Assembly: GCA_016208305.1 (NCBI GenBank)
Contig: JACQYI010000085.1
Location: forward strand, 1 to 47,980
Length of the DNA stretch: 47,980 nt
Source of the DNA: Oscillatoriophycideae cyanobacterium NC_groundwater_1537_Pr4_S-0.65um_50_18
GTDB lineage: Bacteria; Cyanobacteriota; Cyanobacteriia; Elainellales; Elainellaceae
Reading direction: 5' to 3'
Shown: positions 8,804 through 12,458 of the stretch, piece after piece
How the letters are laid out: the number at the start of each line of letters is the position of its first letter
How positions within the stretch are numbered: the stretch's first letter is position 1
Notes under the pieces: generated by a model
What the model was told of the DNA's origin: nothing
Database searches by the model: none
The model's input: only the letters and a program-made list of their open reading frames with translations
Translations under genes and position numbers: made by a program

Positions 8804-9574
8804 ATGTCTCAATTAACCGTTCAAGTTCAGCAAGCCATCAAGTCCATCGTAGAGTCAGATCAAGAGTTCACTGTTAGCTTTGATGACGCTTGGCAATGGT
8901 TAGGTTACTTTGATAAGGCTACGGCTAAGCGCTCTCTAGTTTCTAACTTTGAATGCGATGTTGACTTCAGCATTTCTGCCGAGGCGACAACCACAGGCAT
9001 TTCAGCCAATCGTAGACAGATTATCACTCTCACCAACGATTGCTTCAAACAACTAGCAATGCTTGCAGGTACAGCGAAGGGCAAGGAAGTTCGCCGCTAC
9101 TTTCTTGATTGTGAAAAAGAGTTAAAAGCAATCAAGCAAGCACCTCAGCCTCAGTTACCTGCCAACTACCTCGACGCTCTGAAAGCTCTTGTAGCATCAG
9201 AAGAAGAGAAGCAGCAGCTGACTCTACAAGCCGCTGTAGCAGAGGAAAAGGTGCAAGAGCTACTACCTCAAGCCGCCATCTATCAAGCGGTCTCAGCAGC
9301 CAAAAGCAACGTCTCTATGGGCGATGTAGCCAAGGTTATCGGAGTCATGGGACGCAATCACCTGTTTGAATTTTTAAGAGGCGAGATGATTCTACAAAGA
9401 GACAATACGCCCTATCAACAATTCATCACCGCTGGGTACTTTACCGTAGTCATCACGCCAAGCAAGCACCAGATGTTCACGAATCATACGACAACTCTGG
9501 CCACTCCAAAGGGCATTGAATTCATCATCAAAAGACTGCAAAAAGCAGGGTACAGCTTGCCCCAAGCAGCTTAA
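8804..9574 (+). CDS. Phage antirepressor with C-terminal KilAC domain
   Basis: The N-terminal ~110 residues resemble an AntA/MSV199-type antirepressor domain: FTVSFDDAWQWLGY, DVDFSIS, then IITLTNDCFKQLAMLAGTAK and GKEVRRYFLDCEKEL. A glutamine- and alanine-rich linker follows, and about residues 155-245 match the KilAC DNA-binding domain (PQAAIYQAVSAAKSNVSMGD, VAKVIG, FEFLRG, ITPKG-like ATPKGIEFI). Antirepressors of this type relieve prophage repression. This is the clearest phage-related gene in the window. It has its own upstream motif and a strong terminator, so it is a single-gene unit. Length (256 aa) is normal for two-domain antirepressors. The target repressor is unknown; the HTH protein at 615-1028 is one candidate. 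Confidence 0.85.
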   Translation: MSQLTVQVQQAIKSIVESDQEFTVSFDDAWQWLGYFDKATAKRSLVSNFECDVDFSISAEATTTGISANRRQIITLTNDCFKQLAMLAGTAKGKEVRRYFLDCEKELKAIKQAPQPQLPANYLDALKALVASEEEKQQLTLQAAVAEEKVQELLPQAAIYQAVSAAKSNVSMGDVAKVIGVMGRNHLFEFLRGEMILQRDNTPYQQFITAGYFTVVITPSKHQMFTNHTTTLATPKGIEFIIKRLQKAGYSLPQAA

Positions 9575-10340: not shown

Positions 10341-11609
10341 ATGGGAAATGCTTCTATGGAGCAGTTAGACCAGGATTTTGCTGATGAAATCCTTGTTAAA
10401 GCAGTTTGTATGCTTGCCTTAAGTAGATTTGAGCTAGCAAATGCACTTAGGCAGTGTTCAATATCCATTGGTACAACGCCAATTGGTACAATGCCAGATG
10501 ACTGCCCCGATTGGTATATCACTCTTACCATTCCAAAGGATGCTTTCGACCATATTTTCTTTGGTACATATAGAGCCAGAAAAGCTTTTGAGTATCTAGC
10601 CTTCACTGAAGTGGCAAATCTGGTCGATTTCAATGTGGTAGACTCTCCCAAATCTATACAGACAGTTCCTAAAGCAGATTTAGACCAAACAAAAGTTTTG
10701 CGATCGCAACAGCAAGACTTTATCGAGAGGCTGAATCAGTCGCCCCCTAGCTTGCTTAGATGTGCCACAGTAGGTCGCCACAGTGAATCGATAATCATCT
10801 CAACTGAGAGTACAAAACATCTCAGAGACTTTTGCTGGGAGATGAGCGGTAAGTTCAGAGGATCTCAACCTAAAGAGATTTTCATTTCAACTATGAAAGG
10901 AAAGCTAGGGGAAGAGGCTCTAGTCAATCTGTTGGGCGACTATGTTACTGGGGTTGACTATGAACTGAAACTGGGCGGCGATGGCAAGGTAGACTTCAAG
11001 CTGACTTCTGCTCCAGATGTTGGAATTCAGGTAAAGGCGCGTAATGGCTCAGCTGATAACATCTCTTGGTGGATAGACCTAGAAGAGATTGAATCGAATT
11101 CAGTTTTAGTCTGTTTTCTAATCCAGGAGGAGGTTACAGAAGCTCAGTCAGAGTACCACCTAGTTTCAGCAGGTTTTATTCCTACAGCCAATATCGATAA
11201 AAGCCAACTGACTGACTTTCAAGGTAAAAAGAAAGCCGCTCTCAAGATGAGTGAACTTCTGTATATGGGAGGTCTCAAGAGCTATTTAGAATTTTTGGAA
11301 GAAAAAAAGAGTTCAGAATCTAAGCCAGAAGCTGGCAACTTATCCTCTACCTCTTTTGATTCAGACCAGGTGTGGGAAAAAGTAGTCGAGTGTCTAAAAC
11401 CACCAGGGACGCAGATGCTAATGCGTCAGTGCGCGCGATTGCTATCCTTTAATGGGAAAGAAGCTAAAATTGGTTTCTGTAACCCGCCTCTTTTTCCAAT
11501 AGCTTTAGAAAAAGTACCAAACATTGAAGCCGCCTTCCTTGAGACTTGTGAACATAAGGTAATGGTTTCTTTGGAAGTAGTCGCACCTTTACCTAAGCCC
11601 CCTACTTAG
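10341..11609 (+). CDS. PD-(D/E)XK-like protein fused to a DnaX-type C-terminal domain
   Basis: Two parts can be seen in 422 residues. Residues about 185-265 look like a restriction-endonuclease fold: KGKLGEEALVNLLGDY (E191/E192), GKVDFKL (D218) and VGIQVKARNG (Q230, K232), a D...QxK variant, followed by WWIDLEEIESNSVLVCFL. Residues about 344-414 closely resemble the C-terminal domain of cyanobacterial DNA polymerase III tau (DnaX): VWEKVVECLKPPGTQMLMRQ, RLLSFNGKEAKIGF, PNIEAAF, HKVMVSLEV. A charged linker (320-343) separates them. The N-terminal 180 residues are unrecognised. A nuclease-like protein that mimics or contacts the replisome through a tau-like module would be unusual; defence, anti-host or replication roles are all possible. 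The DnaX resemblance is from memory of that family and needs a profile search. The gene stands alone, with 197 bases before it and 168 after. Confidence 0.6.
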   Translation: MGNASMEQLDQDFADEILVKAVCMLALSRFELANALRQCSISIGTTPIGTMPDDCPDWYITLTIPKDAFDHIFFGTYRARKAFEYLAFTEVANLVDFNVVDSPKSIQTVPKADLDQTKVLRSQQQDFIERLNQSPPSLLRCATVGRHSESIIISTESTKHLRDFCWEMSGKFRGSQPKEIFISTMKGKLGEEALVNLLGDYVTGVDYELKLGGDGKVDFKLTSAPDVGIQVKARNGSADNISWWIDLEEIESNSVLVCFLIQEEVTEAQSEYHLVSAGFIPTANIDKSQLTDFQGKKKAALKMSELLYMGGLKSYLEFLEEKKSSESKPEAGNLSSTSFDSDQVWEKVVECLKPPGTQMLMRQCARLLSFNGKEAKIGFCNPPLFPIALEKVPNIEAAFLETCEHKVMVSLEVVAPLPKPPT

Positions 11610-11777
11610 CTTCTGATTTAACTAAATAGAGGCTCACCTTAAGCAGCAGGCAGTAGTTCCGTACAAAACTTCCTGCTCACCACTGGGTGCAAATCGTATG
11701 CATCATAGAAAAGCTAGCGATCGCCGTAGTTGTAGATTGCCCATTATGCCCACTCAATCTTTTCCTACGATGTGGGT

Positions 11778-12260
11778 ATGGCAAGCTTCATACAACTAAA
11801 TATGCTCCCACAACTAAATAATTCTGACTTCCTGCGATTCACAGACAAAATTAGAGTCGCTGATGGATGTTGGGAATGGCAGACCCCTGGAGATCCCAAA
11901 CACTACCCAAAATTCAAGATTTCTAAAGGCAAGATGGTGGATGCCCATAGGCTAAGCTACCAGCTCTTTAAAGGTGCCATAGCTCCTGGACAGTACATTT
12001 GTCATCACTGCGATAATCGCCGCTGTACGAACCCAGAACATTTGTTTGCTGGCACTCCCAAAGACAATGCAATTGATGCTTACCAGAAGGGAAGGATGAC
12101 TCCTCCAAATAGCAGAAAACTTTCTGAGTTCCAGGTCGCTCAGATCAAGAAGGCGCTGAGGGAGAGCAAAACTCATGCAGCGATCGCACTAGAGTTCGGA
12201 GTTTGCCGTTCAACAATTAGCAATATTGCCCAGGCTAGAAATTGGAGAGGAGTGGGATAG
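11778..12260 (+). CDS. HNH endonuclease with C-terminal HTH (homing-type)
   Basis: Residues about 20-105 form an HNH_3-type domain: GCWEW, AHRLSYQLFKG, then ICHHCDNRRCTNPEHLFAGT, followed by DNAIDAYQKGR. The C-terminus has a helix-turn-helix (FQVAQIKKAL, HAAIALEFGVCRSTISNI). This pairing is standard for free-standing HNH homing endonucleases and phage HNH proteins. ATG 11778 is taken as the start; a GTG six bases upstream (11772) and an ATG at 11802 are alternatives. It is the last gene before the truncated tRNA and therefore lies at the probable edge of the element. It makes double-strand breaks or nicks if active; the target is unknown. Confidence 0.85.
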   Translation: MASFIQLNMLPQLNNSDFLRFTDKIRVADGCWEWQTPGDPKHYPKFKISKGKMVDAHRLSYQLFKGAIAPGQYICHHCDNRRCTNPEHLFAGTPKDNAIDAYQKGRMTPPNSRKLSEFQVAQIKKALRESKTHAAIALEFGVCRSTISNIAQARNWRGVG

Positions 12261-12400: not shown

Positions 12401-12458
12401 TCGAACCGCTGACCTTCTCAATGCCATTGAGACGCGCTACCAACTGTGCTATAGCCCC
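12401..12458 (-). pseudogene. tRNA-Ala(GGC) truncated in the T-loop
   Basis: Read on the minus strand from 12458, the acceptor 5' strand (GGGGCTA), D-arm (GCAC...GCGC), anticodon stem TCTCA/TGAGA with loop ATGGCAT (anticodon GGC), variable loop and T-stem 5' strand AGCGG with TTCGA are all intact. After TTCGA the sequence changes to CCAAGCCCTGAAACCCC instead of the expected CCGCT T-stem and TAGCTCC acceptor strand. The 3' side of the gene is therefore missing, exactly where the accessory region begins. Another tRNA-Ala must serve the cell if this copy is dead. Confidence 0.7.

Follow-up and report, generated by a model that had tools for sequence, protein, structure and literature searches.

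We analysed a window of 47,980 nucleotides that constitutes the complete contig C77 of a 6.9-Mb cyanobacterial genome, and in it a gene at 10341..11609 (+) whose 422-codon open frame encodes a nuclease-tau protein of 422 amino acids, designated P0001. Surveyed genomes are given G-labels, the source genome being G000. The AlphaFold2 model of P0001 has a mean predicted local distance difference test (pLDDT) score of 83. It begins with a small alpha/beta domain (residues 1–112; 10341..10676 (+); model elements H6-26 ... E93-101). This is followed by a predicted PD-(D/E)XK-type nuclease domain, supported by a family alignment and a separate domain model (residues 113–325; 10677..11315 (+)), and by a flexible linker (residues 326–338; 11316..11354 (+)) with pLDDT below 50 at residues 330–338. 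A DnaX tau-type (STI, DnaA_N-like) domain, assigned by profile match, fold and tree, occupies residues 339–414 (11355..11582 (+)).

The tau-type and nuclease domains of P0001

Two profile libraries place a tau domain at the C-terminus of P0001. The Pfam family PF23007 (STICHEL, DnaA_N-like) matches residues 338–412 with an E value of 2.4e-10 and 40.8 bits against a cut-off of 27; none of the 14 control genomes contained a match. PRK14948, the DnaX model of NCBIfam, covers residues 320–413 with an E value of 3e-10. In the structure model, residues 337–414 resemble DnaA domain I (4tps_B; Z 10.2, 2.3 A over 77 residues), and the C-terminal domain also resembles the DnaB loader DciA (8a3v_C; Z 8.5, 3.8 A over 85 residues). 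The initial annotation had likened residues 344–414 to the tau C-terminal domain, and the PF23007 match and the DnaA domain I fold bear this out. A chance match is excluded by the agreement of two significant profile libraries with an independent fold match.

P0001 is not itself a DnaX, because its PRK14948 score of 39.5 bits lies far under the whole-protein cut-off of 593. The possibility that it is a DnaX fragment was likewise rejected: the match is confined to residues 320–413, and the resident dnaX lies on a separate contig (G000:C41). The latter is the sole other match in G000 and is 49% identical over P0001 residues 336–416. When domains were compared, the tau copy of P0001 was 51% identical to that of its own genome's DnaX and 59% identical to the DnaX of a same-genus genome. 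P0001 thus has a domain of ~76 residues like that of cyanobacterial DnaX but is without the AAA+ ATPase part.

DciA, like DnaA domain I, binds the replicative helicase, and 8a3v is the DnaB-DciA complex. The nearest solved folds suggest, as far as the model goes, DnaB helicase as a partner as readily as DnaE. According to a published account of E. coli tau, domain V is in contact with the alpha subunit of the polymerase and DnaB is bound by domain IV (PMC11869525).

An acidic xxPF tail (DDDDVPF and similar) closes DnaX in at least 23 of 38 loci (L075, L004, L008, L016 and others). The tail resembles the SSB C-terminal tip. In contrast to DnaX, the 14 fusion and stand-alone tau proteins examined, out of the 15 described below, do not have it. 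Two second DnaX proteins (L073, L074) are also without it. These belong to a set of shorter second DnaX proteins of ~500–512 amino acids with a divergent tau domain, seen in family f32 in genomes G151, G161 and G397 (L073, L074, L076), the three read of six f32 genomes listed with one.

Residues ~112–320 gave no Pfam match, to DUF4365 or any other family, at E up to 10 in a search whose HMMER filters drop weak matches. The domain nevertheless belongs to a modular family, which is matched in 52 of the 386 phylum genomes, its own among them. In an alignment of 36 members, E191 of the GKLGEE motif (motif I; 10911..10913 (+)) and K232 are invariant. D218 (motif II; 10992..10994 (+)) is present in 32 members and replaced by A or S in four, the G059 and G601 copies among them. 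Motif III is Q230-V-K232 (11028..11036 (+)), a QxK variant of ExK. Position 230 is Q in 19 of the 36 members and E in 17; since the two are nearly equally frequent, QxK is an ordinary alternative in this family. The earlier proposal of a PD-(D/E)XK core with a QxK variant at residues 185–265 is upheld, as E191, D218 and Q230-V-K232 occur in the expected order.

The nuclease domain modelled alone (pLDDT 82) also has a restriction-like fold: all 50 structural matches listed name nucleases, with Z from 8.4 to 4.6. The top matches are I-Ssp6803I (8.4), D212 (7.7) and Eco15I (7.4), followed by a Holliday junction resolving enzyme (1ob8; 7.3), NhoI (7.3), SPARDA (7.0) and DpnI (6.9). Lower matches include PvuII, NaeI, HincII and EcoRV (4.6), and six of the 50 are DXO/Rai1 entries. 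Foldseek by itself gave no match at E <= 0.001 (best E 0.011). The Z values are individually moderate and the Foldseek E value is weak; it is the concord of the matches with the conserved motifs that persuades. Compared with I-Ssp6803I, Eco15I/NhoI, Hjc, DpnI and the SPARDA nuclease, the P0001 model has a like core fold (Z ~6.5–8.4), whereas sequence identity is just 6–21%. Sequence and model thus identify the middle of P0001 as a PD-(D/E)XK-type nuclease domain with intact motifs, for which DNA cleavage is predicted. Neither of the results that the initial annotation named as refuting it, a C-terminus lacking a significant DnaX profile match or a model lacking a restriction-like fold, was obtained.

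Relatives of the nuclease domain are numerous in family f32, which includes the Nostoc genome G247, as the N-terminal part of TPR proteins. The domain of P0001 is 48–58% identical over ~210 residues to cyanobacterial TPR proteins, mostly from f32, and has the same motifs. TPR repeats stand there in the place of tau (six proteins checked with Pfam), and the P0001-type N-terminal domain is missing from the frames, which were read by eye. Three plasmid records match P0001, in each case in the nuclease part only. On plasmid6 of Calothrix brevissima NIES-22 a gene annotated as "DnaJ domain-containing" overlaps the nuclease match (L158 3851-5458; residues 159–311, 44% identity), a possible further partner of the nuclease module.

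The N-terminal domain was matched, among the loci compared, in G008 only (25% identity). Its model shows a weak KH/OsmC-like arrangement; the best matches are eS7, Era, RbfA and OsmC, with Z <= 7.7, which is too weak for a family name.

Recurrence and origin of fused tau domains

Other proteins bearing a tau domain were sought in two overlapping PF23007 surveys, of 386 phylum genomes and 388 class genomes. Such surveys miss genomes whose sole match is a fusion, unless the frame is noticeably short. More than one match at E <= 1e-6 was found in 14 of the 388 class genomes. Both matches of G014 lie in DnaX-sized frames; in the other 13 genomes a non-DnaX protein was read. Adding G334 and G404, which came from the phylum survey, brings the total to at least 15 cyanobacterial genomes with non-DnaX tau proteins; the frames read do not include the second and third matches of G272, G305, G369, G375 and G247. 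Three of the 15 proteins are small and stand-alone (105–113 amino acids; G184, G404, G128). The remaining twelve carry one to four tau copies after an effector of one of five types: GKLGE-type PD-(D/E)XK, HamA-like, CoiA-like, GIY-YIG or TIR.

The combination of N-terminal domain, GKLGE-type nuclease and tau is found in P0001, with one tau copy, and in G008, with four. The GKLGE-type nuclease with one tau copy is found in G059, G073, G086 and G601. A MUG113 GIY-YIG domain precedes one tau copy in G237 and G334 (E 2.9e-5 and 1.5e-5, above cut-off), and CoiA_nuc precedes one in G247 (E 1.1e-4, above cut-off). Two tau copies follow TIR_2 in G566 (E 1e-21) and in G578 (E 5.1e-24; L080 6483-7745), where a PcrA/UvrD tudor domain (E 2.8e-6) is also present. 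A HamA-like domain (PADLOC HamA1, E 0.0015) with two tau copies is found in G497. Thirteen of the 15 proteins were scanned with Pfam, and the other two, from G073 and G128, are near-identical to scanned ones. The scores behind the MUG113, CoiA and HamA assignments are modest; those of TIR are strong. The joining of tau with several unlike effectors, made independently several times, is a weightier fact than the make-up of P0001 alone.

The tudor domain of G578 is a second replication/repair-type module within one protein. All three stand-alone tau proteins (L066, L067, L068) are from family f33, with a GUN4 gene near L066. In G008, a separate gene for a GIY-YIG (MUG113/T5orf172) and SH3 protein lies directly upstream of the four-tau nuclease (L061 13306-14028).

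The origin of the fused domains was addressed by comparing 21 fused or stand-alone tau copies with 97 DnaX domains. The DnaX labels were taken from frame length or sequence context, mostly for short pieces, and several labelled domains (including those of G184, G566, G267 and G111) come from short frames or from the ends of contigs. As a control, the nearest other DnaX was from the same family for 78 of 87 DnaX domains. All three DnaX domains nearest to the P0001 tau copy come from the same genus as P0001, with identities of 59, 51 and 51%. The nearest DnaX is from the own family for the CoiA copy (area under the curve, AUC, 1.00) and for the four TIR copies (AUC 0.94–0.95). Copy 4 of G008 is nearest to the DnaX of G008 itself (62%); copies 1–3 are not.

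A tree of 113 of the 118 domains, built on 76 columns and containing many open forks, gave the same picture for these copies; the very divergent copies 1 and 2 of G008 and three near-duplicates were left out. The P0001 tau copy is sister to same-genus DnaX (support 99/90), the CoiA copy lies within own-family DnaX (100/100), the TIR copies within theirs (97/86), and G008 copy 4 groups with G008 DnaX (92/84, not starred). A single ancestral fusion was rejected by approximately unbiased (AU) tests, in which one clade of nine fused copies had a p-value of 2.7e-8. These tests used 38 of the 118 domains, picked after the tree was made, so that the p-values do not refer to groups fixed in advance. 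Grouping of P0001 with G008 copy 4 (0.007), with CoiA (0.0008) or with TIR (0.003) was rejected as well, and grouping with the G059-type copies was rejected more weakly (0.02). Since the P0001, CoiA and TIR copies cluster with DnaX domains from the same genus or family, the sequence comparisons indicate that the host's own tau domain has been captured repeatedly.

Selection and genomic surroundings

Fusions with near relatives are under purifying selection. Whole-gene omega is 0.03–0.06 in G059, G073 and G086 and 0.09 in G237 and G334; either half of near-identical fusions gives 0.02–0.11. Stand-alone tau copies have omega of 0.20–0.36. The nuclease-tau proteins of the G059/G601 type (L062, L063, L064, L082) have lost D218 and share an insert of ~32 columns. 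In a sample of 338 class genomes they were found only in G059, G073, G086 and G601 and, judging from the sequences, may represent a non-cutting or re-wired offshoot.

Upstream of the P0001 gene is a phage-type antirepressor gene at 8804-9574 (+) (KilAC E 5.9e-21, PHROG Ant 1.4e-39), and downstream is an HNH endonuclease gene at 11772-12260 (+). A truncated tRNA-Ala(GGC), 0.8 kb from the P0001 gene at 12401-12458 (-), consists of the first 58 bases without the 3′ end and has the same sequence there as an intact copy on contig C55. The truncation is consistent with an insertion boundary, and P0001 may therefore be part of a small mobile island. P0001 was rejected as a phage gene, with no match in 50,697 phage records and no PHROG match at E up to 0.1. 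Viral contigs yielded none by a pattern scan, which detects close relatives only. The P0001 model has 20 fold matches in BFVD at E <= 0.001.

A survey of homologue neighbourhoods, suggested in the initial annotation as a search for defence or replication genes, gave a mixed outcome. In G497, a HamB helicase (PADLOC E 5.2e-56) whose frame is broken in two comes after the HamA-like fusion, and an HsdM_N fragment, TniQ and TniB come before it (locus L081 1-10694). By sequence this is a Hachiman-like pair adjoining transposon genes. The CoiA fusion of G247 is carried by plasmid pn4 of Nostoc sp. UHCC 0926 (99.8% along the full protein), where it neighbours a gene annotated DUF4365, presumably PF14280. 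The TIR-tau gene of G566 adjoins the gene for a second TIR protein. The G059-type and G601-type fusions have no PADLOC match. No neighbourhood shared among the tau fusions was seen beyond ubiD in the G059/G601 subgroup. In G086 a gene with weak likeness to TIR (CAP12/PCTIR, E 0.003, below the cut-off) adjoins the nuclease-tau gene (L064 8102-9211); G059 has no TIR-like gene at the corresponding position.

Proposed role and comparison with known systems

We tentatively favour the view that P0001 is an accessory nuclease, probably of defence type, and that its captured C-terminal host tau domain places it at the replisome. The same domain has been captured anew in several lineages onto unlike effectors, so that it is presumably useful for whatever it meets in that host. 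Docking is the simplest meaning, with the DnaX partner holding the fused enzyme at the replisome. The tau domain would bind the same partner as in DnaX, either DnaB helicase or DnaE polymerase, and the flexible linker would tether the nuclease at replication forks. The trigger could be a fork that is taken over or damaged, or a foreign replicon that recruits the host replisome; once triggered, the nuclease would become active and cut DNA at that fork. The binding partner (DnaB, DnaE or a phage protein), the trigger and the activity are what we infer. The recurrence of the tau join with other defence-type enzymes suggests that tau is a reusable docking or bait module. Defence is favoured over repair because of the TIR, HamA-like and plasmid-borne relatives and the patchy presence. 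The initial annotation had offered a replisome-directed nuclease, an anti-phage or anti-host factor, or a decoy for DnaE binding. The make-up is confirmed and the interpretation partly supported: among these options a replisome-directed, defence-type nuclease has the best support, and the anti-host factor and the DnaE decoy are conjectural.

Several observations weigh against this view. The P0001 tau copy is altered at 18 of 50 positions that are invariant in four same-genus DnaX proteins. Four of these changes fall within SQ(P/Q)LFKM, which reads NPPLFPI in P0001. Among the positions conserved in DnaX generally, P0001 retains 11 of the 17 polar residues and 16 of the 19 hydrophobic residues. 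Because of these changes the copy may have altered partner binding, with a partner perhaps other than that of DnaX. P0001 has no near relative, and the omega values thus come from related fusions only. It has no PADLOC match at E up to 1, and its neighbours, the KilAC-type antirepressor and the HNH gene, form no recognised defence operon. The GKLGE-type fusions of G059, G073, G086 and G601, from two families, directly adjoin ubiD. This subgroup has lost D218 yet is under strong selection where measurable and holds a fixed place by ubiD, and it therefore looks domesticated rather than mobile, which speaks for at least one domesticated branch. Finally, the domain comparison revealed no descent from own-lineage DnaX for the GIY-YIG, HamA-like, G059-type and stand-alone copies. 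Own-lineage capture as a universal rule is thus unsupported. For the G601 copy the nearest DnaX is same-family, yet its own DnaX ranks 46th of 97.

Integrated decoys are known from plant NLR receptors, and by analogy the host tau copy could be bait for phage proteins that attack the clamp loader or the replisome, with capture switching on the nuclease or TIR effector. We consider this possible but doubtful. The bait explanation accounts for what docking accounts for, namely the repeated, independent capture of the resident DnaX domain and its union with unlike effectors, and also for the tandem copies (two each in the G566, G578 and G497 proteins, four in G008) and for the changed tau copy of P0001 itself. 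It requires, however, a postulated tau-binding phage factor, and a docking domain would leave identical traces. The papers listed in a literature search for bacterial integrated decoys concern plants and fungi only.

P0001 could also be a housekeeping repair nuclease tethered to the replisome, where it would clear lesions or process stalled forks, much as the repair nuclease NucS/EndoMS docks on the clamp. The stable chromosomal place of the GKLGE-type fusions by ubiD in two families and the low whole-gene omega in three genomes would be expected of such an enzyme. We regard it as unlikely, since a non-DnaX copy occurs in just 13 of 388 class genomes, the TIR, HamA-like and plasmid-borne CoiA versions do not fit, and the ubiD-linked subgroup itself is without D218. 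Still less probable is a homotypic adaptor that pairs effector tau copies with DnaX or stand-alone tau into a signalling complex, in the manner of effector-associated domains (EADs). The coupling of a small terminal domain to five types of effector, the stand-alone copies in three genomes and the likeness of same-organism copies, which PMC8195603 states as an EAD trait, are consistent with it. On the other hand, self-association of the tau domain would be presupposed, no tau-bearing sensor NTPase besides DnaX was found among the frames read, and DnaX and DnaA are absent from the main text of the two EAD papers (PMC7159879, PMC8195603). A competitor encoded by a mobile element, whose fused tau occupies the DnaX partner and slows host replication, is very improbable: the antirepressor and HNH genes and the truncated tRNA-Ala, a possible insertion mark, would suit it, but intact nuclease motifs would be superfluous and neither the phage records nor the scan of viral contigs for close relatives gave a match.

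If the proposed role is borne out, a domain from the core of replication is used as a swappable module, for docking or as bait, by DNA-cutting and TIR effectors, and bacterial immunity would be tied directly to replisome state. A search rule would follow: effectors fused to replication domains of the host are worth seeking. Since the resident dnaX has been captured repeatedly, the docking and decoy models are directly testable.

The initial annotation knew of no described protein of this make-up, and none is described, judging by title and start of abstract, in the papers listed from the literature searched, whose coverage leaves subscription journals and preprints mostly outside. One of the closest known systems is Hachiman, a complex that responds to DNA damage. 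Its effector nuclease HamA belongs to DUF1837, has a D-E(X)K motif and is activated by HamB upon detection of such damage (PMC12278908). The HamA-like nuclease of G497, with its two tau copies, likewise adjoins HamB, whereas the P0001 nuclease is of a different family, has no HamA match, and its tested neighbours are not helicases. Another close parallel is the EADs, described as single small non-catalytic domains coupled to many effectors (PMC7159879, PMC8195603). As with the EADs of Kaur et al., the tau domain is small, terminal and common to five effector types; unlike them, it derives from a replication protein and has apparently been re-captured from the host's own copy. That many effectors share one domain is a known principle; the way in which this domain arose, through capture of a host replication domain time and again, appears to be new.
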